NCBI RefSeq assembly: GCF_014884385.1
Contig: NZ_WKFH01000001.1
Coordinates: forward strand, 89,589-153,588
From: Phycobacter azelaicus
GTDB lineage: Bacteria > Pseudomonadota > Alphaproteobacteria > Rhodobacterales > Rhodobacteraceae
Reading direction: 5' to 3'
Length of the DNA stretch: 64,000 nucleotides
The notes beneath the pieces were generated by a model. It had not been told where the DNA came from. It was given only the letters and a program-made list of their open reading frames with translations, and searched no databases. The first letter of the stretch is position 1; every line of letters starts with the position of its first letter. Positions 2,646 through 19,733 of the stretch are shown one piece after another. The position numbers were made by a program, and so were the translations under genes.

Positions 2646-5015
2646 ATGGCCGCCAAAACTGAAACTGTGGTATCTGAAGTACACCCAACTGATAGAGCCA
2701 AGTCAGAAACATGTGCAAGTGAACATGCCTGCTGTGGAGGAAGCCATTCACACGAAGAGTTTGGTCCCGTGCCACAAGATGGAGCGGGCCGGAGTTTTCA
2801 GGTCAGCGGTCTTGATTGCGCAGAAGAAGTGGCGATCCTCAACAAGGTCGTTGGACCGAAAGTCGGCGGGGCGGAGCACCTGGCATTCGATGTCATCAAC
2901 GGACGCATGATCATACTCCACAGCGCTGCCGCAGTGTCGGATGGAGAGATCACTCAACTGGTTGCGACCACGGGTATGAGCGCAAAACCCTGGGATGCCG
3001 AGAACGCTTCGGAGGATCAAGCTGCGCATCTTGCCCGTCAGCGCCTGTTCACAATGCTGAGCGGAGGCTTTTGGGCGGCAGGATTTCTGTATCACATCGC
3101 AGAAACCGGGATGGGCGGTGCGATCGGTCTCTTTTCCGGCCATGGAGAAGCAGTGATGCCTTTGGTCGAAGCGGGGCTTTTTGCTATCGCGATCCTGGCT
3201 GGCGTTTGGCTTGTCGCCCCGAAGGCGTGGTCATCCGCGCGGCGCGTATCGCCCGACATGAACCTCTTGATGGTGGTCGCTGTGGCCGGGGCTATCGGCC
3301 TTGGCGAGTTTTTCGAGGCGGCAACGGTCGCGTTCTTCTTCTCTCTCTCGCTGTACCTTGAAAGCTGGAGTGTCGGGCGGGCGCGGAACGCTGTCTCGGC
3401 TTTGCTCGACCTAGCGCCACCTACTGCAAGGGTTGTCTACGAAGATGGTTCTGAAGCAGATGTTCCGGCGTCAGCCGTCGCCATCGATGCACATTTCGTG
3501 GTGCGTGGCGGGGACCGCATTCCATTGGACGGGCAAGTGATCGAAGGCGCCGGGGCCGTTGATCAAGCCCCGATCACTGGCGAAAGCGCATTGGTGCCGA
3601 AGGAGCCGGGTGACGAGGTCTATGCGGGCACGATCAATGGCGAGGGCACGCTGACGGTACGCGCGACCAGGGCGGCCTCCGACACGGTGCTCGCCAAGAT
3701 CATCCGCATGGTAGGCGACGCCCACACCCGCCGCGCGCCCGTGGAGCAATGGGTGGCGAAATTTGCGCGCGTCTATACGCCCATCGTGATGGCGCTCGCC
3801 ATTGCCGTCGCGATGCTGCCACCGCTCGTATTTGGTGGAGCCTGGGATGACTGGTTCTACAACGCCCTCGTCCTTCTGGTGATCGCCTGCCCTTGTGCGC
3901 TGGTCATTTCGACGCCCGTGTCCATCGTCGCCGCGCTCACAGCCTCGGCCCGCGCCGGGGTGCTGATCAAGGGCGGTGCTTATGTCGAAGCTCCGGGACG
4001 CACTTCAGCCTTGGCCATGGACAAGACCGGTACGATCACCATCGGCGAGCCTGAAGTTGCTGCAATGTATCCGCTAGGGAATGCGTCGACGCAGGATCTG
4101 ATGGGCGTAGCGGCGGCGCTTGAAGCGCGATCCTCCCACCCGTTAGCGCGCGCTATCCTTGTACGTGCAGAAGTCGACGGCCTTGATGTATCCGCGGCGG
4201 ACGATACGCGGACCGTACCGGGGCGTGGGCTTGAAGGCAGGGTACAGGATCGGGCGGTCTGGCTCGGCTCTGACCGGTTCGCCGAGGAAAAAGGGCTTGG
4301 AAGTGCCATTCCGACAGACCTTCGGCACCGTATCGAAGTTGCCGGTAGTACGTTGGTGGCTGTTGGTGATGCAAATGGGGTGATGGGTATTCTGGAACTG
4401 CGCGACCGCATCCGCCCCGACGCCAAGGGAATCGTGGCTCGTCTGCATGCGCAGGGCGTGAAAACCATCGTCATGCTGACGGGCGACAATGAACGCACCG
4501 CGCGCGCGGTCGCGACAGAGGTCGGCATCGACGAGGTGCGCGCGGAGCTTCTGCCCGAGGACAAGGTGACGGCCATCGAAGACCTGGTCGAAGCGCACGA
4601 TATGGTGGCCATGATTGGCGATGGCGTAAACGATGCCCCCGCCATGGCGCGGGCCCACTATGCTATCGCCATGGGCGCGGTTGGTTCCGACGCGGCCATC
4701 GAGACGGCGGACATTGCCTTGATGACTGATGACATTGGCAGGGTGCCCTGGCTCATAGGCCATTCCCGCCGTGCGATGTCGATCATCCGTCAAAACATCG
4801 CAACCTCGCTGGCAACCAAGGCCGTTTTCGTGGTGGCGACAGCGTTTGGGATGGCATCGATGTGGGGGGCCATTGCCGCAGATGTTGGCGTGTCACTGCT
4901 GGTTGTCGCAAATGCGCTCAGGCTGTTAAACGGACACCACGCGGAGACTCCGCCCAAAGGCGGTGACCGCGTCGGCGACAGACTGGCCGAAGGTGCTTTG
5001 GCGCACGGCCATTGA
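2646..5015 (+). CDS. zntA: heavy-metal P1B-type ATPase (Zn/Cd/Pb efflux)
   Basis: The 789-residue protein shows the full P1B-ATPase layout. It has a cytoplasmic N-terminal metal-binding region, transmembrane helices, the actuator motif TGES, the intramembrane CPC motif (VIACPCALV, residues about 415-417), the phosphorylation site DKTGT (about 458) and the hinge GDGVND (about 658). CPC with the ZntA-like downstream helices points to Zn2+/Cd2+/Pb2+ rather than Cu+ export. The N-terminus is odd: a Cys/His-rich tail (CASEHACCGGSHSH) precedes a ferredoxin-like domain whose usual CxxC loop reads GLDCAEE, with only one Cys and acidic residues. A MerR-type promoter directly upstream implies metal induction. 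The next gene, an L,D-transpeptidase, follows after about 60 bp and is probably co-transcribed. Confidence 0.92.
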   Translation: MAAKTETVVSEVHPTDRAKSETCASEHACCGGSHSHEEFGPVPQDGAGRSFQVSGLDCAEEVAILNKVVGPKVGGAEHLAFDVINGRMIILHSAAAVSDGEITQLVATTGMSAKPWDAENASEDQAAHLARQRLFTMLSGGFWAAGFLYHIAETGMGGAIGLFSGHGEAVMPLVEAGLFAIAILAGVWLVAPKAWSSARRVSPDMNLLMVVAVAGAIGLGEFFEAATVAFFFSLSLYLESWSVGRARNAVSALLDLAPPTARVVYEDGSEADVPASAVAIDAHFVVRGGDRIPLDGQVIEGAGAVDQAPITGESALVPKEPGDEVYAGTINGEGTLTVRATRAASDTVLAKIIRMVGDAHTRRAPVEQWVAKFARVYTPIVMALAIAVAMLPPLVFGGAWDDWFYNALVLLVIACPCALVISTPVSIVAALTASARAGVLIKGGAYVEAPGRTSALAMDKTGTITIGEPEVAAMYPLGNASTQDLMGVAAALEARSSHPLARAILVRAEVDGLDVSAADDTRTVPGRGLEGRVQDRAVWLGSDRFAEEKGLGSAIPTDLRHRIEVAGSTLVAVGDANGVMGILELRDRIRPDAKGIVARLHAQGVKTIVMLTGDNERTARAVATEVGIDEVRAELLPEDKVTAIEDLVEAHDMVAMIGDGVNDAPAMARAHYAIAMGAVGSDAAIETADIALMTDDIGRVPWLIGHSRRAMSIIRQNIATSLATKAVFVVATAFGMASMWGAIAADVGVSLLVVANALRLLNGHHAETPPKGGDRVGDRLAEGALAHGH

Positions 5016-5826: not shown

Positions 5827-6570
5827 TCACGAAAACCGCTTTTGTAAAACCGAATTTAGACCTTCGAACAGCAGCACAAGAGCGATGATGGCAAGCGTGA
5901 CAGTTGCAGCTTTGTCGTATTGGAACGAACGCACGTAAGTCTGAACGTACAGACCGATGCCCCCGGCGCCAACGATACCTAAGATCAAGCTTTCGCGGAG
6001 GTTCAGTTCAAAGCGGAAGACAGTGTCGCGGAGCACAACTGGTGCCATCTGTGGCCAGATCGCCCACCGCAATAATTGCGCTCGGCTGGCACCTGCGCTT
6101 TCCAATGCAGCAAGTGGTGCGGCACCGACATTGTCGATTGCTTCAGCATAGAATTTGGCCAGCATGCCGGTGGCATGAAAAGTGATTGCAAGAATACCGG
6201 GCAGTGGGCCCAGCCCGACTGCCCCCACCATCAGCATCGCCACCAAGATCAGCGGAATCGACCGGATCACTGCCAGCAGCGCACGTACCGGGCGCCAGAT
6301 GGCTGCGGGTACAAGGGTCTCAGACGCAAGTACAGCCAGCCCCGCCGACAGGACGACCGCAAACAGCGTCCCAAGAATGGCGATTCTCAGTGTCTCGGTT
6401 AGGCCTGTAAGGACTTCCGGCCAGACAGAAAGGTCCGGTGGTATCATCCGGCCTAGAAATTCTGCTAGCCTCGGACCCGCTCCGGGCAGTTTTTCCAAGC
6501 CGATGTCAGCGTTTCCTGCAGCCCACAGCACAGCAAGCCCGAGTACCATCCAAACCAAGATCCGGCTCAT
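5827..6570 (-). CDS. PhnE-like ABC transporter permease
   Basis: A 247-residue inner-membrane protein with about six hydrophobic segments and an EAA-type cytoplasmic loop (ESAGASRAQLLRWAIWPQ), ending with GIVGAGGIGLYVQTY, as in PhnE-type permeases. It is the last gene of a leftward operon. Its start codon overlaps the stop of the ATPase gene, which implies translational coupling. Family membership suggests phosphonate or phosphite import. The operon's peroxidase-like first gene and its neighbour, an MntR-type regulator, suggest instead a metal or another oxidised substrate. Confidence 0.85.
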   Translation of the reverse strand: MSRILVWMVLGLAVLWAAGNADIGLEKLPGAGPRLAEFLGRMIPPDLSVWPEVLTGLTETLRIAILGTLFAVVLSAGLAVLASETLVPAAIWRPVRALLAVIRSIPLILVAMLMVGAVGLGPLPGILAITFHATGMLAKFYAEAIDNVGAAPLAALESAGASRAQLLRWAIWPQMAPVVLRDTVFRFELNLRESLILGIVGAGGIGLYVQTYVRSFQYDKAATVTLAIIALVLLFEGLNSVLQKRFS

Positions 6571-7340
6571 CAGCTCACCACCCGCAATCCGTCACCAGGT
6601 ACTGTTCCATGGTACAAATCGCTGATGTCATCGTTGCCGACCATCGCGGAGGGCTTGTCAAACAGCACCGCGCCCGCGCGCAATCCAACGATACGGTCGG
6701 CAAAGCGCCGCGAAAGCTCTGGCTGATGCGAACTGAAGACTACAGCGATGCCGCGATTTCGCGCTGTGTTGGTGATCAGTTCCAGAATGCGTTCGGCGTG
6801 GGCTGGATCGAGGTTGCTGACCGGTTCATCCGCCAGTATCAACTCAGGCTCCTGCGCCAGGCAGCGGGCGATGGCCACTCGCTGGCGCTGACCACCTGAA
6901 AGCTGATCTGCACGGCGCTGTGCCAACTCCGTTAGGCCGGTGTCCTCCAGCGCGATGGTCGTCTTGAGGTGATCCTGCGCACCGTATCGCCCCCAAAGCG
7001 ACGGCCAGAGGCGCATTCGCCCCAGCCGCCCGTTCATCGCATTCTGGTAAACGCTCTGCCGGTCAACCAGGGCGAACTCCTGAAAGATGAAGCCAGTCTC
7101 TAGCCGGGTTTTTCGTTCTGGTGCCCGATCATTTGGAAGCCGGTTGCCCAGTACCTCAGCCCGACCGCGCCATCCCCGGACCCGCCCATCCAGCAAGGCC
7201 AGCAGGGTCGACTTGCCGGCGCCCGAAGGCCCCAGCAAGGCCACACATTCCCCCGGTGCCACCTGCAGCGACACATCCTGCAGGGCCTCAGCGTCGTCAA
7301 AGCAATGCGACACAGCATGGAGGGCAAGCGCTTGGGTCAT
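6570..7340 (-). CDS. PhnC-like ABC transporter ATP-binding protein
   Basis: A 256-residue ATPase with Walker A (GPSGAGKST, residues about 38-46), signature LSGGQRQRVAIARCL and Walker B (LILADEPVSNLD). The length and DEPVSNLDP form are those of PhnC-type ATPases. It overlaps the substrate-binding protein gene by four bases (ATGA) and abuts the permease gene, so the three are one transporter. It energises import by the permease partner at the inner-membrane face. Confidence 0.9.
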   Translation of the reverse strand: MTQALALHAVSHCFDDAEALQDVSLQVAPGECVALLGPSGAGKSTLLALLDGRVRGWRGRAEVLGNRLPNDRAPERKTRLETGFIFQEFALVDRQSVYQNAMNGRLGRMRLWPSLWGRYGAQDHLKTTIALEDTGLTELAQRRADQLSGGQRQRVAIARCLAQEPELILADEPVSNLDPAHAERILELITNTARNRGIAVVFSSHQPELSRRFADRIVGLRAGAVLFDKPSAMVGNDDISDLYHGTVPGDGLRVVS

Positions 7341-8197
7341 TTTAGATAGCCGTAACGGCGTGCCATCTGCCTGACCCCGTCATAGACCTTGGGATCTGCT
7401 GCCACATAGCCGTCTGGGCCGTAGAGATAGGCCAGCAAATACTGGTTCTCAGCCTGGTTCAGGCGCAGCATGGCATCCACGAAGCGGGCCTGCAAGGCCG
7501 CATCTAGACCAGGCCGGGCAATGATGGCATGGCTGGGGATCTGCGCGCTTTCGCCCAGCACCCTGACCTCGGCCTGCTGCTCAGGCGTCAGATAAAGATC
7601 GGCATACTGGCTGGCACCCGCAGCATCCACTAACCCGTTGGCCATAGCCTGCATTGCCTGCTGATAACCACCGGCAAAGAACTTCTGGCCAAAGAACCGG
7701 TCCGCATCGCCTGCATCCGCAACGAGTCCTTCGCGCACAAACAGGTCGAGCGGATAGAGATAGCCGGACTCCGACACCGGATCGGCAAAGGCAATGTCAC
7801 GGCCCTGCAGGTCGGCCAGCGTCTCGATGCCGCTGTCCTTGCGCACAAACACCCGGCCCGAATAGCTCGGCTGGCCGCGGTAAACCTCGGACAGAAGTGG
7901 CACCGCCCCGATCTGGTCTTCTGCCAGCACAAAGGGCAAGGCACCCATGAAGGAGATATCGGCATCACCATTGCGCAATGCCTCAACTGCCGCAGCATGA
8001 TCAAAGGTAACAAAGCCGGTGACTGGAACCTCCAACTGCTGGGACAGCCAGGCAGTGATCGCCTCGATATCCCCCAACAGCTTCTCTGGGTTTTCTTGCG
8101 GAATGAAGGCGAGTTTCAGTGCCTCTTCCGCAGAGGCAGTTGCTGGCACTGTTAGGGCGGCAGCGACAGTGGTCAAAAAGGTACGGCGCGACAGCAT
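7337..8197 (-). CDS. PhnD-like periplasmic substrate-binding protein
   Basis: A 286-residue exported protein with a twin-arginine-like signal (MLSRRTFLTTVAAALTVPATASA). Its fold signature is that of the phosphate/phosphite/phosphonate-binding family: LAFIPQENPEK near the start, then GDADISFMGALPFVLA, VFVRKDSGIETLADLQGRDIAFADPVSESGYLYP and DAAGAS. This family also includes sensors and binders of other ligands, so the substrate cannot be read from sequence. Its ATG overlaps the stop of the upstream diheme protein gene by one base (TGATG). This supports functional coupling of transporter and cytochrome. Confidence 0.86.
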   Translation of the reverse strand: MLSRRTFLTTVAAALTVPATASAEEALKLAFIPQENPEKLLGDIEAITAWLSQQLEVPVTGFVTFDHAAAVEALRNGDADISFMGALPFVLAEDQIGAVPLLSEVYRGQPSYSGRVFVRKDSGIETLADLQGRDIAFADPVSESGYLYPLDLFVREGLVADAGDADRFFGQKFFAGGYQQAMQAMANGLVDAAGASQYADLYLTPEQQAEVRVLGESAQIPSHAIIARPGLDAALQARFVDAMLRLNQAENQYLLAYLYGPDGYVAADPKVYDGVRQMARRYGYLK

Positions 8198-10050
8198 CAG
8201 AACATCCTCTCATCAATCTCGGCTTGCATGGTTTTGAAAGCGTCCCACTGGAGGCTCGCCTCAGCCCAGTCGCCAGCGGCGCTGGCATCGCCAACTGCCT
8301 GAAGAATTGCGGCAAATCGGTAGATTTCTGGCTTAGCGTTTTGATTGATCATAACGCTCGCATCTGCCGCCAGATCCGGTGCAACAGTATCAATCAATAC
8401 GGCGATGTTCTCCGCATCCCGCATCGGGATCAGTGTGTCCAGCGTCGAAGCAAAAGTGGTAAGCTCTTCCCACGACAGGCGGAACACGCTGTCTCGGCCT
8501 TCAAAGCGCTGGTAGGGCTCCTCACCATCTCCTACCGCGCGCAGATAGGCAGTTAAATCGGCGCGCTGTTCCGCATCCAAGCCCAGATCCTTGGTATCGT
8601 TGAACCAGTCTACAACCCCCGCTAGGGTCGCCAGCGATCCGTCATGCATGTAGGGCGCGGTGAAGTTGACATTGCGCAATGTGGGCGTTTCGAATGGGGT
8701 TGCGGTGCCGCCCGGGAACGGCGGCTCGGCCGAGCCAATGTCATAGGTCTGCCCATCTCGGAAAAACCGGTCCGGGGTGTGGCAGGAGGCGCAGGACCTG
8801 TCGCCAAGCCCGGCAAATTCGGTATTGAACAGTACCTCACCGCGTTTCGCAGCCTCAGAGGCCTTGTCAGTCAGCCGCCCGGCCTCGTCTATCTGTGGGT
8901 TGGGCAGAAAGTCAAAGGCGCGCAAGTAGGCGACCATCGCATCGAGTTGGAACGGCGTTGGCTCCGCTCCGGCAAACTCGGTCACGATCACATTGCGTAC
9001 AAAACTGCGCAGGCTCGGCTCGCGCCCATCACGCCCGTAAGGCGCTGTAAAGCGGATGCCTCGCATTGACGGCGTATCCAGGTGATCGTCTTCCCGGTCA
9101 TTGAACATCGGATTGAAGAAGGAGCTGTCCACATCCATCCCGCCAGCATGGCTAGAGAGGCCGGGGATAAAGAAATCCCGGTTCACATCGGACCGGTTGT
9201 GGCAAGTTGAACAGGCAATGCCCAGGTCACGTGCTGGGGAACCAAAGATTTCAGGGCTGTCGAACAGCATGTCGCCATAGGCCACAAGCGGCAGGTTGGC
9301 CTCATCCTCGCCAGCCTCTTCAAACTGGAGCACCAGCCGGGGTAGCTCGCGCTGATCAGCAATATTGGAGCCCGGTGGGAGTGTGGCGGGCAACACTACC
9401 GGCGTACCGGAGCGCACTGCGCTCTCCGGTGCCGGGGTCAGCTTGCCACGTTCGACAAAAACGGAGGGCAGATAGTTTGTCTCAATGTACTCCACGATAA
9501 CTTTTTGCGCCTCAGCAAATCGCGCCACATTCGGGTCTTGAGCGCCATTGTTCAAAATACCGGTGCTACCCAGAGAAGAATTCAGAACCAGCCAGGCGCG
9601 ACCTAGGTCGTGTGCGGCCTGCTTGTCCGCCGCCAGGATGCCGTCCTCGAACGCGCGGTACAAGGCCGCAGACTGCGCAACCTCAAATGCGGCTTCAGGC
9701 TGGCCAAGTGTCGCCTCGGCTGCCTCTAGGTGCTGCAGAATACCTTTGGCCAATGCCGTTGTAATGGCAGCAAACAGGGCCTGTCGGTCTTCCGCAGCCA
9801 GCGCTGCACGAATGTTCTGGGCGTCGCTATCCGATACCCGTGACAGTGCCTCCACCGCAACTGCGCTGCCGGGTGCCGGAGCAGTCCAATTGTTTTCAAT
9901 CTTCTCCCAGGGAACGGGTGTCAAGTTCGCCATGAATAGGCTCAGCCGGTAGGCTGCGGCCCGAGGTGCCCAAGGGGCTTCTTCAATGGCAGTGGCCCCC
10001 ACACTAAGCGGAAGCAGGCCAATCAAGGCAGATGCAATCAGGTGTTTCAT
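8197..10050 (-). CDS. diheme cytochrome c peroxidase/MauG-like protein with extra N-terminal domain
   Basis: A 617-residue exported protein with a signal peptide ending near GATA. It has two c-type heme sites, CSTCH (residues 280-284) and CASCH (about 421-425), in a cytochrome-c-peroxidase-like region. Typical segments are PSMRGIRFTAPYGRDGREPSLRSFV and PTLRNVNFTAPYMHDGSLATL, which supply distal ligands. Residues about 25-220 form a heme-free, helix-rich domain I do not recognise, and about 100 residues follow the second heme domain. Classic CcpA is about 330 residues, so this is almost double. It is the first gene of the PhnDCE-like operon. A TTAGCC/GGCTAA palindrome lies 18 bp before its ATG, and mntR diverges from it, implying manganese-responsive control. 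I infer a periplasmic redox step tied to transport. Confidence 0.82.
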   Translation of the reverse strand: MKHLIASALIGLLPLSVGATAIEEAPWAPRAAAYRLSLFMANLTPVPWEKIENNWTAPAPGSAVAVEALSRVSDSDAQNIRAALAAEDRQALFAAITTALAKGILQHLEAAEATLGQPEAAFEVAQSAALYRAFEDGILAADKQAAHDLGRAWLVLNSSLGSTGILNNGAQDPNVARFAEAQKVIVEYIETNYLPSVFVERGKLTPAPESAVRSGTPVVLPATLPPGSNIADQRELPRLVLQFEEAGEDEANLPLVAYGDMLFDSPEIFGSPARDLGIACSTCHNRSDVNRDFFIPGLSSHAGGMDVDSSFFNPMFNDREDDHLDTPSMRGIRFTAPYGRDGREPSLRSFVRNVIVTEFAGAEPTPFQLDAMVAYLRAFDFLPNPQIDEAGRLTDKASEAAKRGEVLFNTEFAGLGDRSCASCHTPDRFFRDGQTYDIGSAEPPFPGGTATPFETPTLRNVNFTAPYMHDGSLATLAGVVDWFNDTKDLGLDAEQRADLTAYLRAVGDGEEPYQRFEGRDSVFRLSWEELTTFASTLDTLIPMRDAENIAVLIDTVAPDLAADASVMINQNAKPEIYRFAAILQAVGDASAAGDWAEASLQWDAFKTMQAEIDERMF

Positions 10051-10067
10051 GGTTCAGTCTATAATTA

Positions 10068-10081
10068 TTAGCCTTGGCTAA
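10068..10081. promoter_or_regulatory. candidate MntR-type operator
   Basis: The palindrome TTAGCC-tt-GGCTAA lies in the 137-bp gap between the divergent diheme-protein and mntR genes, inside an AT-rich promoter-like stretch. It resembles the ATAGC-n4-GCTAT core of the E. coli MntR box. The link to this regulator is inferred from position and symmetry. Confidence 0.6.
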
Positions 10082-10187
10082 GTTTTGTAGAAAAGTCTAT
10101 GTCATTGTCAAGGCCCGCGTCGCTGGTGCATACACAATAAGGCGCGGCAAGCAGGGTTCCGCACCAGCAATAGACACCGAGAGCAGA

Positions 10188-10637
10188 ATGACCGATCAGA
10201 AACCACAACTATTCGGACGTAAACCTGACGACCAGGTGAGCGGTTTCGAGGCAGCCCGCGCCGCCCGACAAAGCGAAGTTGTGGAGGATTATGTCGAGCT
10301 GATCGCGGAGCTGATTCACCAGAACGGTTCAGCGAGGCCCGTGGAGATTGCCGAGCGGCTCGGCGTGACCCAGCCCACTGTGTCCAAGAACCTGACCCGG
10401 CTTAAACGCGAGGGCTTCATTGTGCAGGAACCTTACCGATCAATACGCCTAACGGATGCTGGGCGGCGATTGGCCGAGGCTTGTCGAAAGCGGCACCGAA
10501 TTGTTGTGGAGTTCCTTATCGCCCTGGGTATTTCCAAAGACGTGGCCGAGCACGATGCTGAAGGTATCGAGCATCATGTAAGCGAAGAGACGCTTCGCGT
10601 ATTCAAGGATTTTTCACAGAGTAAAATGAGCCGATAG
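10188..10637 (+). CDS. mntR: MntR-type manganese-responsive regulator (DtxR family)
   Basis: About 149 residues from the ATG at 10188. An in-frame ATG at 10074 would run through the palindrome, so I prefer the downstream one. A winged HTH (ARPVEIAERLGVTQPTVSKNL, then LKREGFI) is followed by the DtxR/MntR dimerisation part with the metal-ligand motif AEGIEHHVS. That motif matches the Glu-x2-Glu-His pattern of MntR, with a His in CRKRHR. The length matches E. coli MntR. MntR represses or adjusts Mn uptake when Mn2+ is bound. Its divergent arrangement suggests it controls both itself and the diheme/ABC operon. Confidence 0.88.
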   Translation: MTDQKPQLFGRKPDDQVSGFEAARAARQSEVVEDYVELIAELIHQNGSARPVEIAERLGVTQPTVSKNLTRLKREGFIVQEPYRSIRLTDAGRRLAEACRKRHRIVVEFLIALGISKDVAEHDAEGIEHHVSEETLRVFKDFSQSKMSR

Positions 10638-10775: not shown

Positions 10776-11279
10776 TCAGGAGCCGTCATCGTCTGCTTGA
10801 ACGATTAGTTTGGCCTCGACGGGCAAGCCCCCAACCATTAGCGGGCTGTGGCTGTTGCCATTGAGGGAAACTTTTATCTCAACGTCGCCATCCGGCAGTG
10901 ATGGGAGGTGTATCCAGTTGGCATAAAGGCGCCCCAGCTTTTCGCCGTTGATATAGACATGCGCGTGACCTTCACCAAGTATTTCCTCAGTAGAGGCATT
11001 CTCAGGAGAAAATCGGAAGTTTTGCGGTGTCACGTGCAAGTTCCAACCTGCCATCGGATCTTTAATCATCTTGATCGCCACGCTGGGGGCATTGCTGTCG
11101 GCCGGTAAGTTAGTGACAGCAGAGTGGTCATGGGCTGCCATCTCCGCATTGCTACCATGTTGAGACGGGTCAGCATGGTCGTGGCTGTCAAAGGTGCTGC
11201 CGCTGCCGGCCGCGATCACAAAGCCGACGCCGCCGCCAAAAATCAGCCCGATGGCGAAGAGAGCGAGTGAACGGGACAT
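10776..11279 (-). CDS. membrane-anchored His-rich periplasmic protein downstream of cbtBA
   Basis: A 167-residue protein with an N-terminal membrane segment (LALFAIGLIFGGGVGFVIAAG) and a His-rich linker with about eight His (DSHDHADPSQHGSNAEMAAHDHS). A beta-rich domain follows, containing HVTPQNFRFSPENAS, EGHAHVYINGEKLGRLYANWIHLPSLP and a closing VEAKLIVQ. I do not know a named function. The His-rich linker and the cbtB-cbtA context suggest a periplasmic Co2+/Ni2+ or other divalent-metal binder. It is the last gene of the riboswitch-controlled operon. Confidence 0.7.
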   Translation of the reverse strand: MSRSLALFAIGLIFGGGVGFVIAAGSGSTFDSHDHADPSQHGSNAEMAAHDHSAVTNLPADSNAPSVAIKMIKDPMAGWNLHVTPQNFRFSPENASTEEILGEGHAHVYINGEKLGRLYANWIHLPSLPDGDVEIKVSLNGNSHSPLMVGGLPVEAKLIVQADDDGS

Positions 11280-11347: not shown

Positions 11348-12046
11348 TCAGGCGGCGGCGTTCGCGCGTTTGCCTTCAGCCTGCCAGAAGTATCCGGCAA
11401 AGCTTCCCAGCAACACCCAAGCGGCCATGCCGATGCCAAAGGCTCGGGCGGCAAATAGCGCGCCGATCTCGGTCGGAACCGGGCCAGCGAAGGTGTCGGG
11501 TTCAGGCGCACCGACGACGTGAGGCGCTATCAGCAGTCCAGCGGCGATCAGATAGCTCACCAAGTTGCCTCCAAAGGCGATCAACCACATGGCGACGCCA
11601 GCTGTGGCAACAGTAGCAGTCCACCATACTTGGCGCACACCGACATCTGCTGCGGCTACGCCTGGCACTTCAGGCGCCAGCGACAAGCCAGGCGCAAAGT
11701 GGAAGGCAACAAAGCCAGCCAAGCCCCAAAGCAAACCGGTGCGACCGTTAATCTCACGACCCTGTTGTTCGGCAATCGACATAAGCGCCACAAGGGCCAA
11801 TGCATAGCCAGTATACGTCAGCATCGTGAAGATGATGCTTAGGCCGTCGCGCACCGGCTCGGCGAACATGCCGGGCAACTCGGGATGCGCAGTCACAGGA
11901 TCAGCGCCAAAATGCACCAAATCGCCACCCTCATAAAGTTCGGCGTGGAGAAGTACAGGCTGCACGAAATAAAGCTGCAGCAAGGCGGCAATCAGCCCCG
12001 CTGCAGCACCAGCGAACAACGCGCTGGTCAGAATACGACTGAACAT
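11348..12046 (-). CDS. cbtA: CbtA-family cobalt transporter subunit
   Basis: About 232 residues from the ATG at 12046 (MFSRILTSALFAGAAAG). The frame is open 25 codons further upstream, but that overlaps cbtB and adds no family-like sequence. Several transmembrane helices are present, with the CbtA-typical start FSRILTSALFAGAAAGLIAALLQ and internal LWGLAGFVAFHFAPGLSLAPEVPG. CbtA and CbtB are predicted cobalt transporters, usually controlled by cobalamin riboswitches, as here. The gene follows cbtB with about 4 bp between them. Confidence 0.9.
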   Translation of the reverse strand: MFSRILTSALFAGAAAGLIAALLQLYFVQPVLLHAELYEGGDLVHFGADPVTAHPELPGMFAEPVRDGLSIIFTMLTYTGYALALVALMSIAEQQGREINGRTGLLWGLAGFVAFHFAPGLSLAPEVPGVAAADVGVRQVWWTATVATAGVAMWLIAFGGNLVSYLIAAGLLIAPHVVGAPEPDTFAGPVPTEIGALFAARAFGIGMAAWVLLGSFAGYFWQAEGKRANAAA

Positions 12047-12050
12047 GGTC

Positions 12051-12221
12051 TTAGTGGCAGGGAAAGCCAGTTGCGTGGCGCACATCGTGAGCAGCGTCAT
12101 GCAGGCCAGAAGCTTGAGCATGGCCGGTCACAGTAACAACACCCAAACCCAGAATAAGGGCGAACACTGCGGGCAGAATGGTTGATCCTACAGCGGATGC
12201 TTTGATAGCGTTTGTCGTCAT
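12051..12221 (-). CDS. cbtB: CbtB-family cobalt transporter subunit
   Basis: The ATG at 12221 is chosen because AAGGAGG lies six bases upstream. The 56-residue protein has one transmembrane helix (ILPAVFALILGLGVVTVTG) and the diagnostic C-terminal His motif HDAAHDVRHATGFPCH. It is the first gene after the B12 riboswitch and is coupled to cbtA. CbtB is thought to supply the metal-binding His cluster of the two-part cobalt transporter. Confidence 0.9.
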   Translation of the reverse strand: MTTNAIKASAVGSTILPAVFALILGLGVVTVTGHAQASGLHDAAHDVRHATGFPCH

Positions 12222-12261
12222 TTTAGTCCTCCTTGCCGTCACACCCGACGGCGCAAGTTAC

Positions 12262-12455
12262 GTTCAATATACGGCCGGTCTCCTGACTCGCGGGTCGATG
12301 CCGTCTTCCCCCTTCCCAGCACTCTCGCACCAGTGGAAATGGAAGGTAGCTCGCCGCTCACAGTCGCGGGGGCGGTTGAGGTTTCGGTGCCGCGATTTGG
12401 TCCACCGTCCTCATTCCCGTTTCAGCTCTAATGCATTTGCACCTTTGAGCACCGT
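12262..12455 (-). ncRNA. cobalamin (AdoCbl) riboswitch upstream of cbtBA
   Basis: On the minus strand a B12 box, GAGTCAGGAGACCGGCC, lies at about 12273-12289. It is preceded by the conserved core CCCCCGCGACTGTGAGCGG and a 5' GGTGC segment near 12450. The order and spacing match the cobalamin riboswitch fold. It sits about 50 bp upstream of cbtB, so cobalt import is expected to be shut down when cobalamin is plentiful. Exact ends are estimates. Confidence 0.9.
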
Positions 12456-12613
12456 AATGACTGTTTCTGTCCGATTAGGCGGTAGCAGGTCAAGTACGAA
12501 ACCGGCATGCCTAAGTTCCGCAGCGCCAAATTGATTTGAAATCTGCTGCTGTCAACACTGTACTGAATGCAATAATTCACCGCAGGAGCTACTAATATCG
12601 TGGTGCGGGTGGT

Positions 12614-12949
12614 TTACTGCACATCTGCGGGAATGCGAGCAATAGCCTTGAAACGCAGCTTTCCAAGTGGCCTTGCATCCGCGAAGTTACCGTCTGGGCT
12701 TTCCTGATACATCCGGATGAATGTCAGGATGTCCGGCAGGTCTTGAGCAGTTATCTCACCGAAAAGATAAGCAGTCTTGTCGTTCTGTCGGACTGCAAGC
12801 GTTTGTGGTCGCATGCAGCCGGACATGCAATCGACGTGCTGCAATTTTGCCTTCACATTCGCTGCCTTTAGCGTTGATACCACTTGATCATACAGGGTTG
12901 GATCCGCGTCACGGCAGGTTCGGCATAAAGTAAGCGTTGGTAGGTGCAT
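12614..12949 (-). CDS. DUF1636 family (2Fe-2S-like Cys) protein
   Basis: About 111 residues from the ATG at 12949 (MHLPTLTLCRTCRDAD); an upstream in-frame ATG at 12976 is possible. The N-terminal CRTC and central DCMSGC supply four Cys in a thioredoxin-like ferredoxin pattern, followed by QTLAVRQNDKTAYLFGEI. DUF1636 proteins commonly occur beside cobalt or cobalamin genes, and here the cbtBA riboswitch lies immediately downstream on the same strand. A metal or iron-sulfur role is inferred; no enzymatic activity can be assigned. Confidence 0.78.
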   Translation of the reverse strand: MHLPTLTLCRTCRDADPTLYDQVVSTLKAANVKAKLQHVDCMSGCMRPQTLAVRQNDKTAYLFGEITAQDLPDILTFIRMYQESPDGNFADARPLGKLRFKAIARIPADVQ

Positions 12950-12976
12950 GCGCCGAGCAAGTCCTTTTTTGAGCAA

Positions 12977-13214
12977 CCTTCTTTATGATTCAATATCTGC
13001 GGGTGGTTACTGGTTCGATTTCGAAACTTGGTTTTGTCGCGGTGCCTTTAGAAAAGTCAATACTTGAGCGATCGGTAAGCTCGCCGGAGTAGGCACCTAC
13101 AATGCCAACATAGATTATTCAGACTTGTGGCACGAGAAATTTTTCTTGTCCGGCAAATCGAGGAAACAGTTGCTCAGGCAAAAAATCCGCCGAATGAAAC
13201 TTGGGGCAATGTCT
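12977..13214. other. intergenic region between lspA and DUF1636 gene
   Basis: About 240 bp holding no convincing gene. It should contain the promoter for the DUF1636 gene and the end of the lspA transcript. I found no MerR-type 19-bp-spacer promoter or riboswitch core here. Confidence 0.4.
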
Positions 13215-13697
13215 TCAATGATCGCCCTCGAAGTGCCTCTGGATCACTGGTACCACCAGCAGTAATCCGGCACCTCCGACAATGAATACGTCTGCCATGT
13301 TGAAAGTCGGCCAGTGTGCAGATCCAATGAAAAAATCAAGGAAGTCTGTTACGGCTCCATAATGGATGCGATCAACGACATTGCCGAGCGCGCCACCTAT
13401 GATCGCCCCATACGCAATCGCTTCTATACTGCTCTCTGTGCGAAGCATCATGATCAGGAGCCAGGCACAAATGATAAGCGCAAGAAGCAAGAGGCCCCAC
13501 CAGGGGGCGCCACCCAAAAGCCCGAAGGTTACGCCATCATTGCGATGGAACGTGAGATTAAGCCCGGGAAAGACAGCGATCCCGTCTTTTAGGGTATCGG
13601 CGCTCGCGACAACCCAGGCTTTTGTTACCTGATCAGTGGCGACGGCGCCGACGACAGCTAGTATGCCGAGTACTTGTGTTTTGTTGACTGTCAACAT
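13215..13697 (-). CDS. lspA: lipoprotein signal peptidase (signal peptidase II)
   Basis: A 160-residue integral membrane protein with four hydrophobic segments and the two catalytic-Asp motifs of LspA: GNVVDRIHYGAVTDFLDF and TFNMADVFIVGG. It cleaves lipoprotein signal peptides after lipid modification. LspA paralogues are often found with Pb/Cd/Zn resistance genes (as in pbr systems), so this is likely an accessory copy rather than the housekeeping one. It is 100 bp downstream of the DUF411 gene on the same strand and probably the last gene of the sco-dsb envelope operon. Confidence 0.92.
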   Translation of the reverse strand: MLTVNKTQVLGILAVVGAVATDQVTKAWVVASADTLKDGIAVFPGLNLTFHRNDGVTFGLLGGAPWWGLLLLALIICAWLLIMMLRTESSIEAIAYGAIIGGALGNVVDRIHYGAVTDFLDFFIGSAHWPTFNMADVFIVGGAGLLLVVPVIQRHFEGDH

Positions 13698-13796
13698 GTT
13701 GCAACGTAACTACTTTGGATACCATTGGCCGGTCTGCGCTGAAGCGGCTGAATAGGTTAGCTAGATTGGGGAAAGGACTTCCATAATTCGGCTCGG

Positions 13797-14252
13797 TTAC
13801 CCTGCTGGGTAGCTCGAAAATATTTCGGTCGAGCCGTCTTTCTGGATCAAGAAGACGTCGTAGGCATCGCGTTCGTCTTCCGGCCCCATCCCTGGCGAAC
13901 CATAGGGCATTCCGGGGACTGCGAGACCGACCGCATCGGGGCGTTCGTTCAGAAGGCGGCGGATGTCGGCTGCAGGCACATGTCCCTCGATCACGTAACC
14001 GTCCACGAGCCCAGTGTGACAGGAGACCATGCGCTGCGGCACTCCGTTGTCGAGTTTGAAGCGCACGAGAAGGCCGCCGAACATGTCCTGGCCTATTGGT
14101 GCGAAGCCGTTCTCCTCAAGATGATTCATCCAGGACAGACAGCAACCGCATCCATTGGTCTTGCGGACGTCTATTGGGGTTGCCTCCGCGAGGGCCTGCG
14201 CCGCCGGTAACAGGGCGAGTGTGATGGCAAGAGCTTGGATCATGCGTCTCAT
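13797..14252 (-). CDS. exported DUF411 metal-binding protein
   Basis: A 151-residue protein with a cleavable signal (ALAITLALLPAAQALA). It carries the DUF411 features: KTNGCGCCLSW near the mature N-terminus, a central MVSCHTG and a C-terminal LAVPGMPYGSPGMGPE. DUF411 proteins are linked with copper or other metal resistance; the four Cys and the Met-rich turn suggest periplasmic soft-metal binding. The gene abuts the M23 peptidase gene (three bases between them) in the same operon. Confidence 0.88.
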   Translation of the reverse strand: MRRMIQALAITLALLPAAQALAEATPIDVRKTNGCGCCLSWMNHLEENGFAPIGQDMFGGLLVRFKLDNGVPQRMVSCHTGLVDGYVIEGHVPAADIRRLLNERPDAVGLAVPGMPYGSPGMGPEDERDAYDVFLIQKDGSTEIFSSYPAG

Positions 14253-14255
14253 GGG

Positions 14256-15629
14256 TCAGAGCCTTTCGGTTGTCGTTTCGGCAATGTCGCTGCCGAGGTT
14301 TTCATTCAGAAGCGCCCGCGCCTCGACCAGACGCAAAAGCGCGGCTGTATCATCCGCTTCGCTCTCAGCCGCTTCGGCAAGTCTGTCGTCAGAGAGGGGG
14401 TCAGTAGGGCGTCCATCCACGAGGACTTCGTAGTGCAGGTTCGGGCCCGTCGCCGTGCCAGTCGCGCCGACGCGACCGATCACATCTCCCGCCGCAACGC
14501 GTTGGCCTTGTGCCAGGCCCTCGGGCACAGCGCTGAGATGCGCATAGCGTGTCATTGTGTCTGAGCCGTGGGCGATTTCGACCACGCGACCATAGCCGCC
14601 CCGCCAGCCGATGAAGCTGATCCGTCCCGGTGCTGTCGCTTGAACCGGCGTTCCGCTTGCCGTCGCGAAATCGACACCTGTGTGCATCCGGACATTGCCG
14701 TAGACCGGGTGCGTACGGCGGCCAAATACCGAGCTTAATCGCGCCCCTTCGACAGGCTGTGCAAAAACGCGGAGAACCGTGCCATTGACGTAAATCGTTG
14801 CCCGATCGCTACCGCTTACCGGCCAGACAACTTCATAAAGTGCGCCGCCGATCTCCAGCGATGCAAAGGTAAGTTCCGGCTGACCAATTCTGTCTTCGCC
14901 AACACGGGCCTCGCGCCACAGTAGCCGAAGCGTTTCTCCGCCGGTCACCTCACGACGGAAGTCGACGATTCCACCCAGCATCTGTGCCAAATCGACAGCG
15001 AAGCGGGCAGGCATCTCGGCTTCTTCCAGCGCGGCAAAAAGCGAGCTGTCGATCACCGCTTCGCCCGCCGATGTTATGAAGTCGGGAGCCGGGGTCACGA
15101 CCTGCGTGGCCAACTCTTCGCCAAAGATCGCCTCGATCCGCACACCGTCCTCGACGGAGAGCGCGACGCTGCGCGGGCTGCCGTCCATCGTCGAAACAAC
15201 GGTGACCGAATGCCCAGGCCTAAGTCGCCTCAGATCATATTCCGCGCCGAGGGCCAGAGCGACCTCGGCACGGTCAGTCGCTGAGAGACCTGCTTCTTCA
15301 AGAACGGTGTCGAGCGTCTCGCCGGTTGCGATATCGCGTGACCAGTTGGAGAGCGGAGGTTCTATCGTCGGTAAGAGAGTATCGGCGCTCGCAACCTCCA
15401 GACGTGGCATGGACTGGAGTGGTATTGCGGGCTCCACACGTGTTTGTGCGACCTGCGGTGTTTCCGTTTCAATAGAAGTGGGAAGCGGGAGTTGAGGTGG
15501 CGACCAAGTGGTTGCAGCTGCCAGACCGGGAGGGATCGGATCCTTCGACCAGATGCCCGATATTGCCAACCCGCCCACCGACAGCACCGATACGAATGCG
15601 AAACCTGCCGCGATTGTTCTAATTCTCAT
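14256..15629 (-). CDS. M23 family peptidoglycan endopeptidase
   Basis: About 457 residues from the ATG at 15629, which has GGGGGG five bases upstream; an upstream ATG at 15659 is less likely. An N-terminal membrane anchor (IAAGFAFVSVLSVGGLAISG) is followed by a long linker and LysM/OapA-like region. The C-terminal LytM/M23 Zn-peptidase domain has Zn ligands in HTGVDFAT and LHYEVLVDG and the motifs HPVYGNVRM and GATGTATGPNLHY. It should cut peptide crosslinks in the cell wall. It overlaps the second sco gene by about 11 bases, so is firmly within the operon. With two L,D-transpeptidases nearby it forms part of a cell-wall-remodelling set. Confidence 0.88.
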   Translation of the reverse strand: MRIRTIAAGFAFVSVLSVGGLAISGIWSKDPIPPGLAAATTWSPPQLPLPTSIETETPQVAQTRVEPAIPLQSMPRLEVASADTLLPTIEPPLSNWSRDIATGETLDTVLEEAGLSATDRAEVALALGAEYDLRRLRPGHSVTVVSTMDGSPRSVALSVEDGVRIEAIFGEELATQVVTPAPDFITSAGEAVIDSSLFAALEEAEMPARFAVDLAQMLGGIVDFRREVTGGETLRLLWREARVGEDRIGQPELTFASLEIGGALYEVVWPVSGSDRATIYVNGTVLRVFAQPVEGARLSSVFGRRTHPVYGNVRMHTGVDFATASGTPVQATAPGRISFIGWRGGYGRVVEIAHGSDTMTRYAHLSAVPEGLAQGQRVAAGDVIGRVGATGTATGPNLHYEVLVDGRPTDPLSDDRLAEAAESEADDTAALLRLVEARALLNENLGSDIAETTTERL

Positions 15630-16251
15630 GTTGCCCCCCAGTTTCTCTATTGAGCGCACGCCGGATTTTCGGCACTGCGAATTCCCTCGGCTCGTGATAG
15701 TCGATCATGGTGCTGAACCGGCCTTTCGCGTCGAAAAGGAAAACGCTGGCAGTGTGGTTCATGGTGTAGTCGCCACCTTCGGTCGGCACCCGCCCATAGC
15801 GTGCGCGGAAGCCCTGTGCTGCGCGCGCAATTTCCTCTTCCGGGCCAGTCCACCCGCGGATCGACGGATGGAAATAGCCGACATACTCGGCCATTGCCTC
15901 GACAGTATCCCGCTCTGGATCGACGGTGATGAACACCACGTTCATTCCCTCCGCCTCTTCGCCCAGGTCATCAAGCCAGCCGGAAATATCCGACAGAGTC
16001 GTCGGACAAACGTCCGGGCAATAGGTGAAGCCGAAGAAGACCATTGACGGGCTGCCGATAAGGTTTTCGGGTCCAACCTCGTTACCTTCGTGATCTGTCA
16101 GGCGGAATTCCATTTCAGATAGGGCAACCGGGCGCAACCCCGCTTGTTCGGGCGCGCCGGGGCCATCGACCTGCCACCACCCAACAACAAGTGTCAGGAT
16201 GATCGCCGCGATGCCAGCGAAGGCATACTTGAGGATCGACCGTCGGGTCAT
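15619..16251 (-). CDS. SCO1/SenC/PrrC-family copper chaperone
   Basis: A 210-residue membrane-anchored thioredoxin-fold protein: anchor AGIAAIILTLVVGW, CxxxC metal site in TYCPDVCP (C78, C82), VDPERD and the distal His in MNHTAS (about 166). Sco proteins deliver copper to cytochrome oxidase CuA or act as thiol redox proteins. This is the second Sco of the operon and is intact. It follows PCuAC with overlapping start/stop, matching the known PCuAC-Sco partnership in copper handling. Confidence 0.9.
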   Translation of the reverse strand: MTRRSILKYAFAGIAAIILTLVVGWWQVDGPGAPEQAGLRPVALSEMEFRLTDHEGNEVGPENLIGSPSMVFFGFTYCPDVCPTTLSDISGWLDDLGEEAEGMNVVFITVDPERDTVEAMAEYVGYFHPSIRGWTGPEEEIARAAQGFRARYGRVPTEGGDYTMNHTASVFLFDAKGRFSTMIDYHEPREFAVPKIRRALNRETGGQHEN

Positions 16252-16715
16252 TAGCTCTCGGGACCGCGCGCTGCAATACCTAGAATTGGAACCTCGACCA
16301 CGATCTCACCACCGTCCGAGAAGTCGAGCGTCAAGGAAAAGCTTTCGCCCTTGGCCATCGGTCGCTGCAAGCGCATCAGCATGGCGTGAAGGCCACCCGG
16401 TTCCAGAGACACAGATTCACCCGGCGCAATCTCGATCTCGCCTGCAGGTGCCATTGAGCTAACACCATCGGCATTTGTGGATGTCTGGTGAATATCAGGC
16501 ATCATCGCCAAATCCGTGCGGAGGCCAGTAAGTATCACAGCCTCGTCGCCTGTATTGCGGATTGTCATATACGCGACACCCGGACGGTTTACGCCGATTG
16601 ACGCGCGCGCCCAGGCATCTTCGACGACAACGTCTTCCGAACCAGCTTCTACCGGGGTCGCTGTGCTTGATGCGAACATGCTTGCGGCCATCAGGCCATA
16701 GAGTACTGTCTTCAC
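16251..16715 (-). CDS. PCu(A)C-type periplasmic copper chaperone
   Basis: The GTG at 16715 is chosen as start because an AGGGA ribosome-binding site precedes it and it opens directly on a signal peptide (VKTVLYGLMAASMFASS). The mature domain carries the PCuAC copper-binding pattern: MPDIHQTS, then SSMAPA, then GGLHAMLM (H, M, H, M ligands). PCuAC extracts or delivers Cu+ in the periplasm. It lies between the thioredoxin-like gene and sco2 in the operon. Confidence 0.88.
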   Translation of the reverse strand: MKTVLYGLMAASMFASSTATPVEAGSEDVVVEDAWARASIGVNRPGVAYMTIRNTGDEAVILTGLRTDLAMMPDIHQTSTNADGVSSMAPAGEIEIAPGESVSLEPGGLHAMLMRLQRPMAKGESFSLTLDFSDGGEIVVEVPILGIAARGPES

Positions 16716-16737
16716 TTTGCGGTTCCCTTTTTGACCA

Positions 16738-17397
16738 CTAGCTGCCAACTGCAGCTACTTCGGCGTCAACCTGTTGTCTCAATTCGTCCATTCCAAACGG
16801 ATCTAGCGGCTTGCCATTGATGTAGAACGTTGGGGTCTGGCGAACGCCCATTGTTTCTACGTCCGCTTTGTCCTGATTGACGATTGCCACGATATCGGGT
16901 GATTTCATCTGCTCTATCGCAAGTTCGAGATCGAGCCCGGCTCCGGCCGCGATCTTTCCCAGCTTTTGTTGATCAAACGCCCCATGCGCCGCCCACGCGT
17001 CTTGATAAGCCATTAGAGCATTTAGCACCTGTTCGAACTTGCCCTGCATCCGGGCCGCTTCTAGCAACTTGACGGCTATATCCGAAATCGGTCCGTGAAA
17101 CGGAGTGTATCGTATGACAACACGCACGGCTTCGGGATTTTTGTCCAAAATATCTTTTACGACGGGGTGAAATGCGCGACAGGCCTCGCAGGCTGGATCG
17201 AGGAACTCAACGATGGTCACGGGGGCTTCAGCGGGCCCCAAAACAGGCGAATATGGTCGCATCAAAGCGTCCGCCAACTCTGGCGCGACAACCGCACGTT
17301 CAGATGACGGTTTTGGTTGGTTTACATACCACGCGGCCCCACCAAAACCGGCAGCACCCATTGCGAGAACGGAAATAATCAACCCGCGTCGGTTCAT
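16738..17397 (-). CDS. DsbA-family periplasmic disulfide oxidoreductase
   Basis: A 219-residue protein with an N-terminal anchor or signal (GLIISVLAMGAAGFGGAAW) and a thioredoxin-like domain with active site DPACEACRAFH (C70, C73). The cis-Pro loop is GVRQTPTFYING. It belongs to the DsbA/ScsC/BdbD-like thiol oxidoreductases. It overlaps dsbB by four bases (ATGA), so the two make a paired oxidation system. Genes for a disulfide pair next to two Sco proteins and a copper chaperone point to thiol maintenance of exported metalloproteins under metal stress. Confidence 0.88.
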   Translation of the reverse strand: MNRRGLIISVLAMGAAGFGGAAWYVNQPKPSSERAVVAPELADALMRPYSPVLGPAEAPVTIVEFLDPACEACRAFHPVVKDILDKNPEAVRVVIRYTPFHGPISDIAVKLLEAARMQGKFEQVLNALMAYQDAWAAHGAFDQQKLGKIAAGAGLDLELAIEQMKSPDIVAIVNQDKADVETMGVRQTPTFYINGKPLDPFGMDELRQQVDAEVAAVGS

Positions 17398-17816
17398 GAT
17401 TTTTTCTCCTTGAGAGATAGGACTGAAAGCGCACCAATAAGCGCAAATGTAACAACGGCCATCAGCGGAATGGGGATGCCTAACACCAACTGGTTGTCGT
17501 CAGTGCAAGAGGGCCCCGTCGCAGTACAAGGTTGGACGCGTTCAGGTATGATCCCGACATATAACCCCATATGCCAAGCAGCCACTGCTGCGCCACCAAG
17601 TGCGAGTACGACACCGTACCGACCAACACGCGGATCTTGCCACCATAGTCCCAGCCCAAGAATTATCGCCAGTGGAAACATGAAGGCGCGCTGGAACCAG
17701 CAAAGAACACAAGGTGTCTGCCCCAGCACTTCGCCAATGAACAGAACAGCAAGCGAGGCGATGAGGGCGATCACCCAAGCCAGCCCGAGGGCAGTTTCTC
17801 CGTATAATCGGTTCAT
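17394..17816 (-). CDS. dsbB: DsbB-family disulfide bond formation protein
   Basis: About 140 residues from the ATG at 17816, which is five bases after the stop of the displaced sco1 3' end. Four transmembrane helices carry the two periplasmic Cys pairs, CVLC in LGQTPCVLCWFQR and CTATGPSC, with the quinone-proximal Arg in CWFQR. It re-oxidises the adjacent DsbA-like protein using quinone. The short spacing to the sco1 remnant shows it was originally translated behind sco1. Confidence 0.9.
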   Translation of the reverse strand: MNRLYGETALGLAWVIALIASLAVLFIGEVLGQTPCVLCWFQRAFMFPLAIILGLGLWWQDPRVGRYGVVLALGGAAVAAWHMGLYVGIIPERVQPCTATGPSCTDDNQLVLGIPIPLMAVVTFALIGALSVLSLKEKKS

Positions 17817-17821
17817 TTGGG

Positions 17822-17902
17822 TCAGAGCCTCTCTCTTAGATCGGTAAGTATCTCTTCGGCAGAGGTGCCATAAGCCCAAGAGTCGGTGAAGCGCGCCTTT
17901 GG
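17822..17902 (-). pseudogene. 3' remnant of IS-interrupted sco1
   Basis: On the minus strand this reads KARFTDSWAYGTSAEEIL and ends DLRERL-stop, the typical SCO C-terminus (YGTSPEEI). The 5' part of the gene lies on the far side of the IS3-family element at 17903-19162. Joining HTSHL with KARFTDSW leaves only a few residues missing, so the IS insertion was accompanied by a small loss. No target-site duplication is evident. Confidence 0.82.
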
Positions 17903-17963
17903 AGAGGTGGTCCTGCTTTTTCGACCAGAATGCAGCCCAGTTAAGGTGGATCAGGGTTTCACA

Positions 17964-18794: not shown

Positions 18795-19096
18795 TTTTTG
18801 CCTCGCGTCCCGAGCAGTTGAACCGAGGCATTCGCTAAAAAATCCCGTTCCACCACCAGCTGCCCGATCTTCGAATGCAGCTTCTCGATCTCTGCCTCCT
18901 TCCCCTTCCCGGGATCAGCGCCTCGCCGGGTGAACGCCGTGGCCATGTTCTCGATCGCCGCCCGCTTCCACGTGCTGATCTGGTTCGGATGCACGCCATA
19001 CTTCTTCGACAGCTCGGCCAGCGTCATCTCTTCTCGGATCGCTTCAAGCGCAACCTTCGCCTTGAACTCAGGCGTATGCGTCTTTCTCTTTGCCAT
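18788..19096 (-). CDS. IS3-family transposase OrfA (IS_A1)
   Basis: A 102-residue HTH protein (KAKVALEAIREEMTLAELSKKYGVHPNQISTWKR) with a leucine-zipper-like C-terminal part (EIEKLHSKIGQLVVERDFL). It ends at TGGTGA, overlapping the orfB start ATGGTGAGC. It binds IS ends as part of the OrfAB transposase. Confidence 0.9.
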   Translation of the reverse strand: MAKRKTHTPEFKAKVALEAIREEMTLAELSKKYGVHPNQISTWKRAAIENMATAFTRRGADPGKGKEAEIEKLHSKIGQLVVERDFLANASVQLLGTRGKKW

Positions 19097-19162
19097 TTCG
19101 GATCGTCTCTCTCGTCATACGATCCACCTTAACAACTGGTCCGAATTTCCGCGACCACCTCT

Positions 19163-19668: not shown

Positions 19669-19702
19669 GTTATTTCGCCCGTTTGATTCTCGGTTTTGAG
19701 CC

Positions 19703-19733
19703 GGTTTACATCCTCTAGCTACTGTAGGTTCAA
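19703..19733 (-). promoter_or_regulatory. MerR-family operator/promoter of sco1-dsb operon
   Basis: On the minus strand TTGAAC (19733-19728), a 19-bp spacer with dyad CCTACAG-tag-CTAGAGG, then TAAACC (19708-19703). It lies about 35 bp before the GTG of sco1 and in the gap divergent from the MerR-family regulator at 19839. This is the classic arrangement for a regulator activating its divergent target. Confidence 0.82.

Follow-up and report, generated by a model that had tools for sequence, protein, structure and literature searches.

The last 64 kb of the 153,588-base contig NZ_WKFH01000001.1 of Phycobacter azelaicus, whose genome comprises three contigs and 4,008,202 bases, form the stretch of DNA analyzed here (the window). 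Near its start lies an operon of four minus-strand genes that encode, from left to right, a PhnE-like permease, a PhnC-like ATPase, a PhnD-like periplasmic binding protein, and a diheme protein of the peroxidase/MauG superfamily, with successive overlaps of 1, 4, and 1 bases. A gene for an MntR-type regulator diverges from them; its start is probably the ATG at 10188 rather than the TTG at 10074 of the mechanical open reading frame (ORF), and its stop side is at 10637. The ORF coordinates and family models agree with an earlier note on this DNA, which had described four leftward genes overlapping by one to four bases beside a divergent MntR-type gene. Its family assignments, PhnD/PhnC/PhnE-like and cytochrome c peroxidase (CCP)/MauG-like, are borne out by matches to PF12974, ABC_tran, TIGR01097, and CCP_MauG (Table 1).

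Table 1. Features of the operon, its promoter region, and the divergent regulator gene, in window coordinates.
Feature	Position	Strand	Basis
PhnE-like ATP-binding cassette (ABC) permease, 247 amino acids	5827-6570	minus	ORF and family models
PhnC-like ABC ATPase, 256 amino acids	6570-7340	minus	ORF and family models (ABC_tran)
PhnD-like periplasmic binding protein, 286 amino acids, twin-arginine-like signal (SRRTFL), altered pocket	7337-8197	minus
His223 codon (Te_PtxB capping Tyr208)	7529-7531	minus
Tyr178 codon (Te_PtxB His160)	7664-7666	minus
Glu143 codon (Te_PtxB anion-loop Thr131)	7769-7771	minus
His67 codon (Te_PtxB Tyr55)	7997-7999	minus
Diheme peroxidase/MauG-superfamily protein, 617 amino acids	8197-10050	minus	ORF and CCP_MauG
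C-terminal helical bundle, about residues 512-617	8200-8517	minus
Second heme motif CASCH, residues 420-424	8779-8793	minus
First heme motif CSTCH, residues 280-284	9199-9213	minus
N-terminal heme-free helical domain, about residues 29-215	9406-9966	minus
Palindrome TTAGCCTTGGCTAA, candidate MntR site	10068-10081	.	Sequence, conservation
Likely operon promoter by eye: TTGACA (10106-10111), 16 bases, TACAAA (10084-10089)	10084-10111	minus
MntR-type regulator, 149 amino acids, six manganese ligands	10188-10637	plus

Public records annotate the operon genes as phosphonate transport and cytochrome c peroxidase. The permease exceeds the cut-off of the PhnE equivalog model TIGR01097 (239.7 bits; cut-off, 216.7). 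The ATPase has PhnC as its best family, at 238.6 bits against a cut-off of 266.1 for the equivalog TIGR02315, and the binding protein reaches 163 bits against a cut-off of 261.1 for the PhnD equivalog TIGR03431. Because the Pfam family of the binding protein is PF12974, it does not belong to PF01297, the SitA/ZnuA family; the two PF01297 proteins of the host are encoded away from the operon. The operon shares its gene set, fold, and permease family with the PhnCDE, PtxABC, and HtxBCDE importers but differs from them in its replaced pocket residues, its manganese-type regulator, its diheme partner, and a signal resembling that of the twin-arginine translocation (Tat) route.

The earlier note had proposed searching for co-occurrence of the diheme protein with PhnD-like proteins and MntR. 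A scan with the diheme protein, using one genome per species, yielded 40 loci, and all five genes are clustered in 35 of them. The diheme gene adjoins the PhnD-like gene in 38 of the 40 loci, and mntR adjoins in 36. Gene order persists in loci whose diheme protein is as little as 47% identical, and the palindrome persists to approximately 53%. Among the exceptions, locus L020 ends 337 bases past the diheme match and L031 ends within the PhnD-like gene, while L040 and L042 have no adjoining mntR. When 292 genomes were sampled evenly across the order, the diheme gene turned up in 15, which makes it a sparse accessory; MntR, PhnD, and PhnC matches adjoin it in all 14 further carriers of this sample. 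A sample of 398 genomes of the phylum contained two carriers, the host included. In one genome (G166; L068 and L069), the diheme gene is split over two frames.

The operon also travels. Named plasmids carry relatives: 44 records match the diheme protein with an E value of at most 1e-20, and in 43 the match covers 80% or more of the protein. In a DNA search, the best 20 of 150 records were all annotated with mntR (or a manganese-dependent regulator), a binding protein, an ATPase, a permease, and a cytochrome c peroxidase. Approximately 20 kb around the operon (window 1-21297) are 99.95-100% identical in eight of the 40 loci (L003-L006, L008, L018, L023, and L032) of other species from seven genera, which indicates very recent spread. 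These results support a view of the gene set as one conserved, mobile unit of marine bacteria.

The regulator scores 205.4 bits against the E. coli-type MntR model NF008273 (cut-off, 153). An ungapped alignment places its residues D34, E37, H103, E125, E128, and H129 at D8, E11, H77, E99, E102, and H103 of B. subtilis MntR, which PMC6860424 gives as the six manganese ligands of that protein. The family score and the presence of all six ligands uphold the earlier assignment of the regulator to the manganese-sensing type.

The palindrome TTAGCCTTGGCTAA is present between the operon and mntR, where the earlier note had placed it, and directly follows the promoter identified by eye; a consensus promoter scan gave a different pair (10064-10091). 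Inspection by eye across the loci shows the same arrangement of TTGACA, about 16 bases, a TA-rich hexamer, and then the site, a position that would suit a repressor. For 25 of the 40 loci, sites were scored by how many of the 12 fixed bases of TTAGCCNNGGCTAA they match, leaving out 7 identical copies and 8 near-duplicates recognized by eye (L013-L015, L027, L029, L030, L034, and L041). In 23 of these 25, a site in the operon promoter scores 10/12 or more, and in 22 of the 23 it has no equal elsewhere in the locus; L031 contains a second, equal site. The count fails in L021 (8/12) and L040 (9/12). All 14 further carriers have a site of at least 10/12, and L019 and L022 each have two tandem sites.

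The host genome contains one exact palindrome, at the operon, and one other copy at one mismatch. With up to two mismatches, there are 48 places in the host genome versus 169 for the backwards control, and 2 in the window versus 1.35 in shuffled sequence, so only near-exact copies are meaningful. A wider MntR regulon in the host is not indicated, given that palindromes at this tolerance are rarer than the control. The sequence ATAGCCTTTGCTAT, located 16 bases before mntH of E. coli K-12 and which we take to be the known MntR box, agrees with the operon palindrome at 11 of 12 inner bases; it is one of at least six scores of 9/12 within that 10 kb of E. coli DNA.

A second, different metal box occurs on the operon in one locus and provides a weaker link to manganese. 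In L040 (Pontibaca), which lacks both mntR and a good palindrome, the operon promoter holds TTGCGAATGACAATCATT. In the host, TTGCGAATAATTCTCATT and TTGCGAACCGTTCTCATA precede the gene for a PF01297 protein at C3:1391566. Across 2,669,844 positions, the first of these boxes was matched at 14 or more of its 18 bases five times; two of these are the two strands of the L040 site, and the others lie in L021 (two) and L024 (one). In the host cluster, genes for a binding protein, an ATPase, and two ABC-3-like permeases follow one another, which is the SitABCD layout (fold type judged by eye), and the ATPase scores best with manganese MntA. In L157 (1904-3169), the first permease of the host's Sit-like cluster has an extra, cytoplasmic-looking C-terminal part that resembles a helix-turn-helix by eye. 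According to PMC4334477, Mur and sitABCD have been validated in Ruegeria pomeroyi. Mur may be the regulator that reads the L040 box. The operon has in common with MntR-regulated mntH and Mur-regulated sitABCD the regulator family, an mntH-like palindrome, and, in one locus, a box like that before the Sit-like genes of the host, but its importer family has no relation to Nramp or the PF01297 binding proteins. As far as sequence can show, there is good support for a conserved import operon under manganese-type control.

The pocket of the binding protein was mapped by alignment to the published positions of Te_PtxB. Five of the eight positions that form the phosphorus-oxygen pocket are changed (Y55, T131, H160, Y208, and D22 to H, E, Y, H, and Q, respectively), while Y100, S130, and S132 are retained. 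The combination H67/E143/Y178/H223 is present in all 24 operon proteins (23 distinct) and in 117 of the best 120 homologues, the other three having Tyr67. None of the 27 distinct other PhnD-like proteins used as controls has H67, E143, or Y178. These replacements support the conclusion that the pocket has lost its fit to phosphite and, no longer suiting an oxyanion, would suit a metal. An ordinary importer of phosphonate, phosphite, or another oxyanion that was brought under MntR control is distinctly unlikely: the PhnD- and PhnC-like proteins fall below their equivalog cut-offs, four of the five changed positions hold residues that never occur together in the controls, including the glutamate in the anion loop, and the regulation is of the manganese type.

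From the pocket, a metal is the probable substrate, with manganese as the first choice and iron as the second. An importer of Fe3+ would combine a pocket resembling that of ferric-binding proteins with a diheme enzyme that oxidizes Fe2+ and an MntR that admits iron when manganese is short. We consider this unlikely, since the regulator is of the manganese type and has all six manganese ligands.

The export signal of the binding protein sets it apart from the controls as well. Two adjacent arginines occur within the first 30 residues of 119 of the 120 homologues, the remaining one being truncated, and a Tat-like motif fits 102 of the 120 versus 1 of 27 distinct controls, whose start sites are uncertain. 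Tat export suggests that the protein folds, perhaps with a metal, before it leaves the cytoplasm. The same observation, together with the serines that remain in the anion loop, would fit a protein that keeps its metal as a fixed cofactor and uses it to bridge to an anionic substrate, for instance a metal chelate or a small organic acid. Nothing points to such a substrate, however, and Tat export may have other reasons, so we regard this alternative as very unlikely.

The diheme enzyme has two c-type heme motifs and a CCP_MauG domain. It remains far below the cut-offs of the MauG/MbnH models TIGR04039 (72.6 versus 362.85 bits) and TIGR03791 (46.3 versus 443.85 bits). In a structure model with a mean predicted local distance difference test (pLDDT) score of 75.9 and a poorly modeled heme region, residues 29-215 or so form a confident helical bundle, which matches the heme-free N-terminal domain of about 200 residues in the earlier note. 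As in that note, the domain found no family: neither Pfam nor hhalign matched it to imelysin (PF09375) or another family, and Foldseek, run with the domain not folded alone, returned EfeM, EfeO, and imelysin only at E values above 1. A C-terminal helical bundle (about residues 512-617), absent from the earlier description, lies outside the heme core and matched no known family. Phe483 aligns with a Met of two bacterial CCPs (1iqc and 3o5c) and with a Tyr of 6e1c, which are presumably axial ligands. Because a phenylalanine stands at the CCP methionine, the enzyme is not a plain CCP. Compared with MauG and the MbnH/MbnP pair, it shares the diheme CCP_MauG domain but differs in its family scores, its extra helical domains, and the Phe in place of Met or Tyr. 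PMC3621798 describes MbnH, too, as conserved together with its partner protein.

A distant relative of the diheme enzyme on a Bradyrhizobium plasmid, 43% identical over residues 215-560 and lacking the N-terminal domain, hints at a role of the wider diheme family in metal uptake. Its gene overlaps by 4 bases a gene for an EfeM/EfeO-family lipoprotein (L125, 7129-9287), which matches PF09375 at an E value of 9.7e-19 and the EfeO model at 3.8e-29, below the cut-off of the latter. EfeUOB consists of the imelysin EfeO, the peroxidase EfeB, and the permease EfeU. What the operon shares with it is the concept of a periplasmic peroxidase next to a metal carrier, as well as this one distant relative that adjoins an EfeO-like gene, but no imelysin match was found in the operon, a diheme enzyme stands in place of the DyP-type peroxidase, and its importer is an ABC system rather than EfeU. 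Similarity to the Bradyrhizobium enzyme identified 12 further loci, of which 11 hold diheme relatives outside the operon and one (L146) holds the operon itself. Two short diheme proteins occur in one genome (G966; L142 and L143); they are 45-47% like that of Bradyrhizobium, and no transporter of the operon adjoins them.

The diheme enzyme could also be only a periplasmic scavenger of hydrogen peroxide that covers for failing manganese-dependent defenses, apart from transport, a role that is compatible with a metal importer. Its membership in the CCP/MauG superfamily fits this role, and manganese shortage weakens manganese-dependent antioxidant enzymes. Yet its gene overlaps that of the binding protein by one base, the two are adjacent in 38 of 40 loci, and Phe483 occupies the position of the CCP methionine, which together make the scavenger possible but doubtful.

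In our judgement, the operon would be a metal ABC importer assembled from the parts of a phosphonate importer together with a diheme partner. More specifically, we favor, at a probability of roughly 0.57, a manganese-repressed importer of the PhnDCE type for a metal, most likely manganese, that works with the periplasmic diheme enzyme. Built on what could be observed directly (gene order, conservation, regulator type, conserved sites, pocket replacement, and signal type), the proposed mechanism would run as follows. When manganese is sufficient, manganese-loaded MntR would occupy the palindrome over the transcription start and block the operon, as its sequence and position suggest; when manganese is short, the four operon proteins would be made together. 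The PhnD-like protein probably folds in the cytoplasm and leaves by the Tat route. It may bind a metal, most likely manganese, through His67, Glu143, Tyr178, and His223, at the site used for phosphite by its relatives; Ser142 and Ser144 might hold a small anion as well. PhnE and PhnC would then move the metal into the cell, in keeping with their families. Within the periplasm, the diheme enzyme might oxidize the metal, free it from a complex, or otherwise act on the metal or its carrier; this is the weakest step. The EfeUOB peroxidase has been proposed to act likewise with iron.

A bolder version of this scheme is a redox-coupled manganese importer. Here, under manganese starvation, the diheme enzyme would oxidize Mn(II) to Mn(III) in the periplasm or free manganese from organic complexes there, and a transferrin-like site in the PhnD-type protein would capture the ion with a small anion and feed the ABC permease. 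We consider it unlikely. If true, it would be a manganese counterpart of EfeUOB made from phosphonate-transporter parts, and, to our knowledge, the first PhnD-type protein that carries a metal. The earlier note had suggested a new metal (Mn/Fe) or redox-dependent import system; the conserved unit, the manganese-type MntR, and the metal-suited pocket held up, while the redox step and the actual substrate did not reach the same standing. Among the literature titles and abstract openings on a diheme protein with PhnD and MntR, or on PhnD with a metal, none describes the operon; a 2006 study of alphaproteobacterial iron/manganese regulons lies outside that coverage and may have predicted part of it.

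Several points weigh against a manganese-repressed metal importer. At 157.4 bits, the binding protein exceeds the cut-off (112.05) of TIGR01098, the broad subfamily model for phosphate/phosphite/phosphonate binding proteins. The pocket argument draws on an alignment and on published positions rather than on measured geometry. L021 has a diheme gene without partner genes or site, and L146, from another family, has the four operon genes with neither mntR nor a good palindrome. The pattern TTGCGAAYNNNNNTCATW was itself derived from the three sites it matches: two in the 4.0 Mb host genome, which both precede the PF01297 cluster, and one in L040, the only other match among the 155 loci. The binding protein of that cluster scores best with zinc AztC (199.3 bits) and then with manganese MntC (149.9 bits), both below cut-off, and this order leaves the SitABCD identity of the cluster uncertain. 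None of the 12 further loci has an EfeO-like neighbor, as judged with an M75 profile and an EfeO-like query that recovered the Bradyrhizobium one. There is also no sign that the operon replaces a Sit-like importer, given that 9 of the 15 carriers have a relative of one as well.

Two candidate ideas were set aside on these counts. Pairing with EfeO as a rule was rejected, with a single case in Bradyrhizobium, and replacement of known manganese importers by the operon was not observed. A relative of the host's Sit-like binding protein is found in 115 of the 292 genomes, and among the nine carriers that have one, G130 is a weak case (42% identity). Nramp scores above its cut-off in 44 of the 292 genomes and in 1 of the 15 carriers. 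Five carriers (G012, G072, G257, G269, and G271) have neither a Sit-like relative nor Nramp, which proves nothing because MntX was not included in the search.

If the operon is a manganese importer, bacterial manganese uptake would gain a further ABC type, and the operon would show an oxyanion-binding protein turned metal carrier. At least 43 plasmid records would then be misannotated, which matters for surveys of marine phosphorus cycling. The operon is also a clear test case for periplasmic heme enzymes in manganese uptake. Manganese-oxidizing Pseudomonas putida is reported to hold more intracellular manganese than its non-oxidizing mutants (PMC3798386).

In the surroundings of the operon, window positions 17904-19161 (approximately 1.25 kb) are missing from the eight near-identical loci. 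They contain an rve integrase-core transposase ORF (17964-18794) and probably represent a fresh insertion sequence. The island around the operon (window 2646-5015 and 11348-19815) further encodes a metal P-type ATPase, CbtA, PCu(A)C, two SCO1-like proteins, and a DsbA-like protein; the P-type ATPase was named from its sequence and relatives rather than by a family search. Metal and copper genes like those of the island recur near the operon in other loci. Beside CbtA, a protein of 167 amino acids (10776-11279) has no family match, and a relative with 87% identity lies beside the operon in L063.

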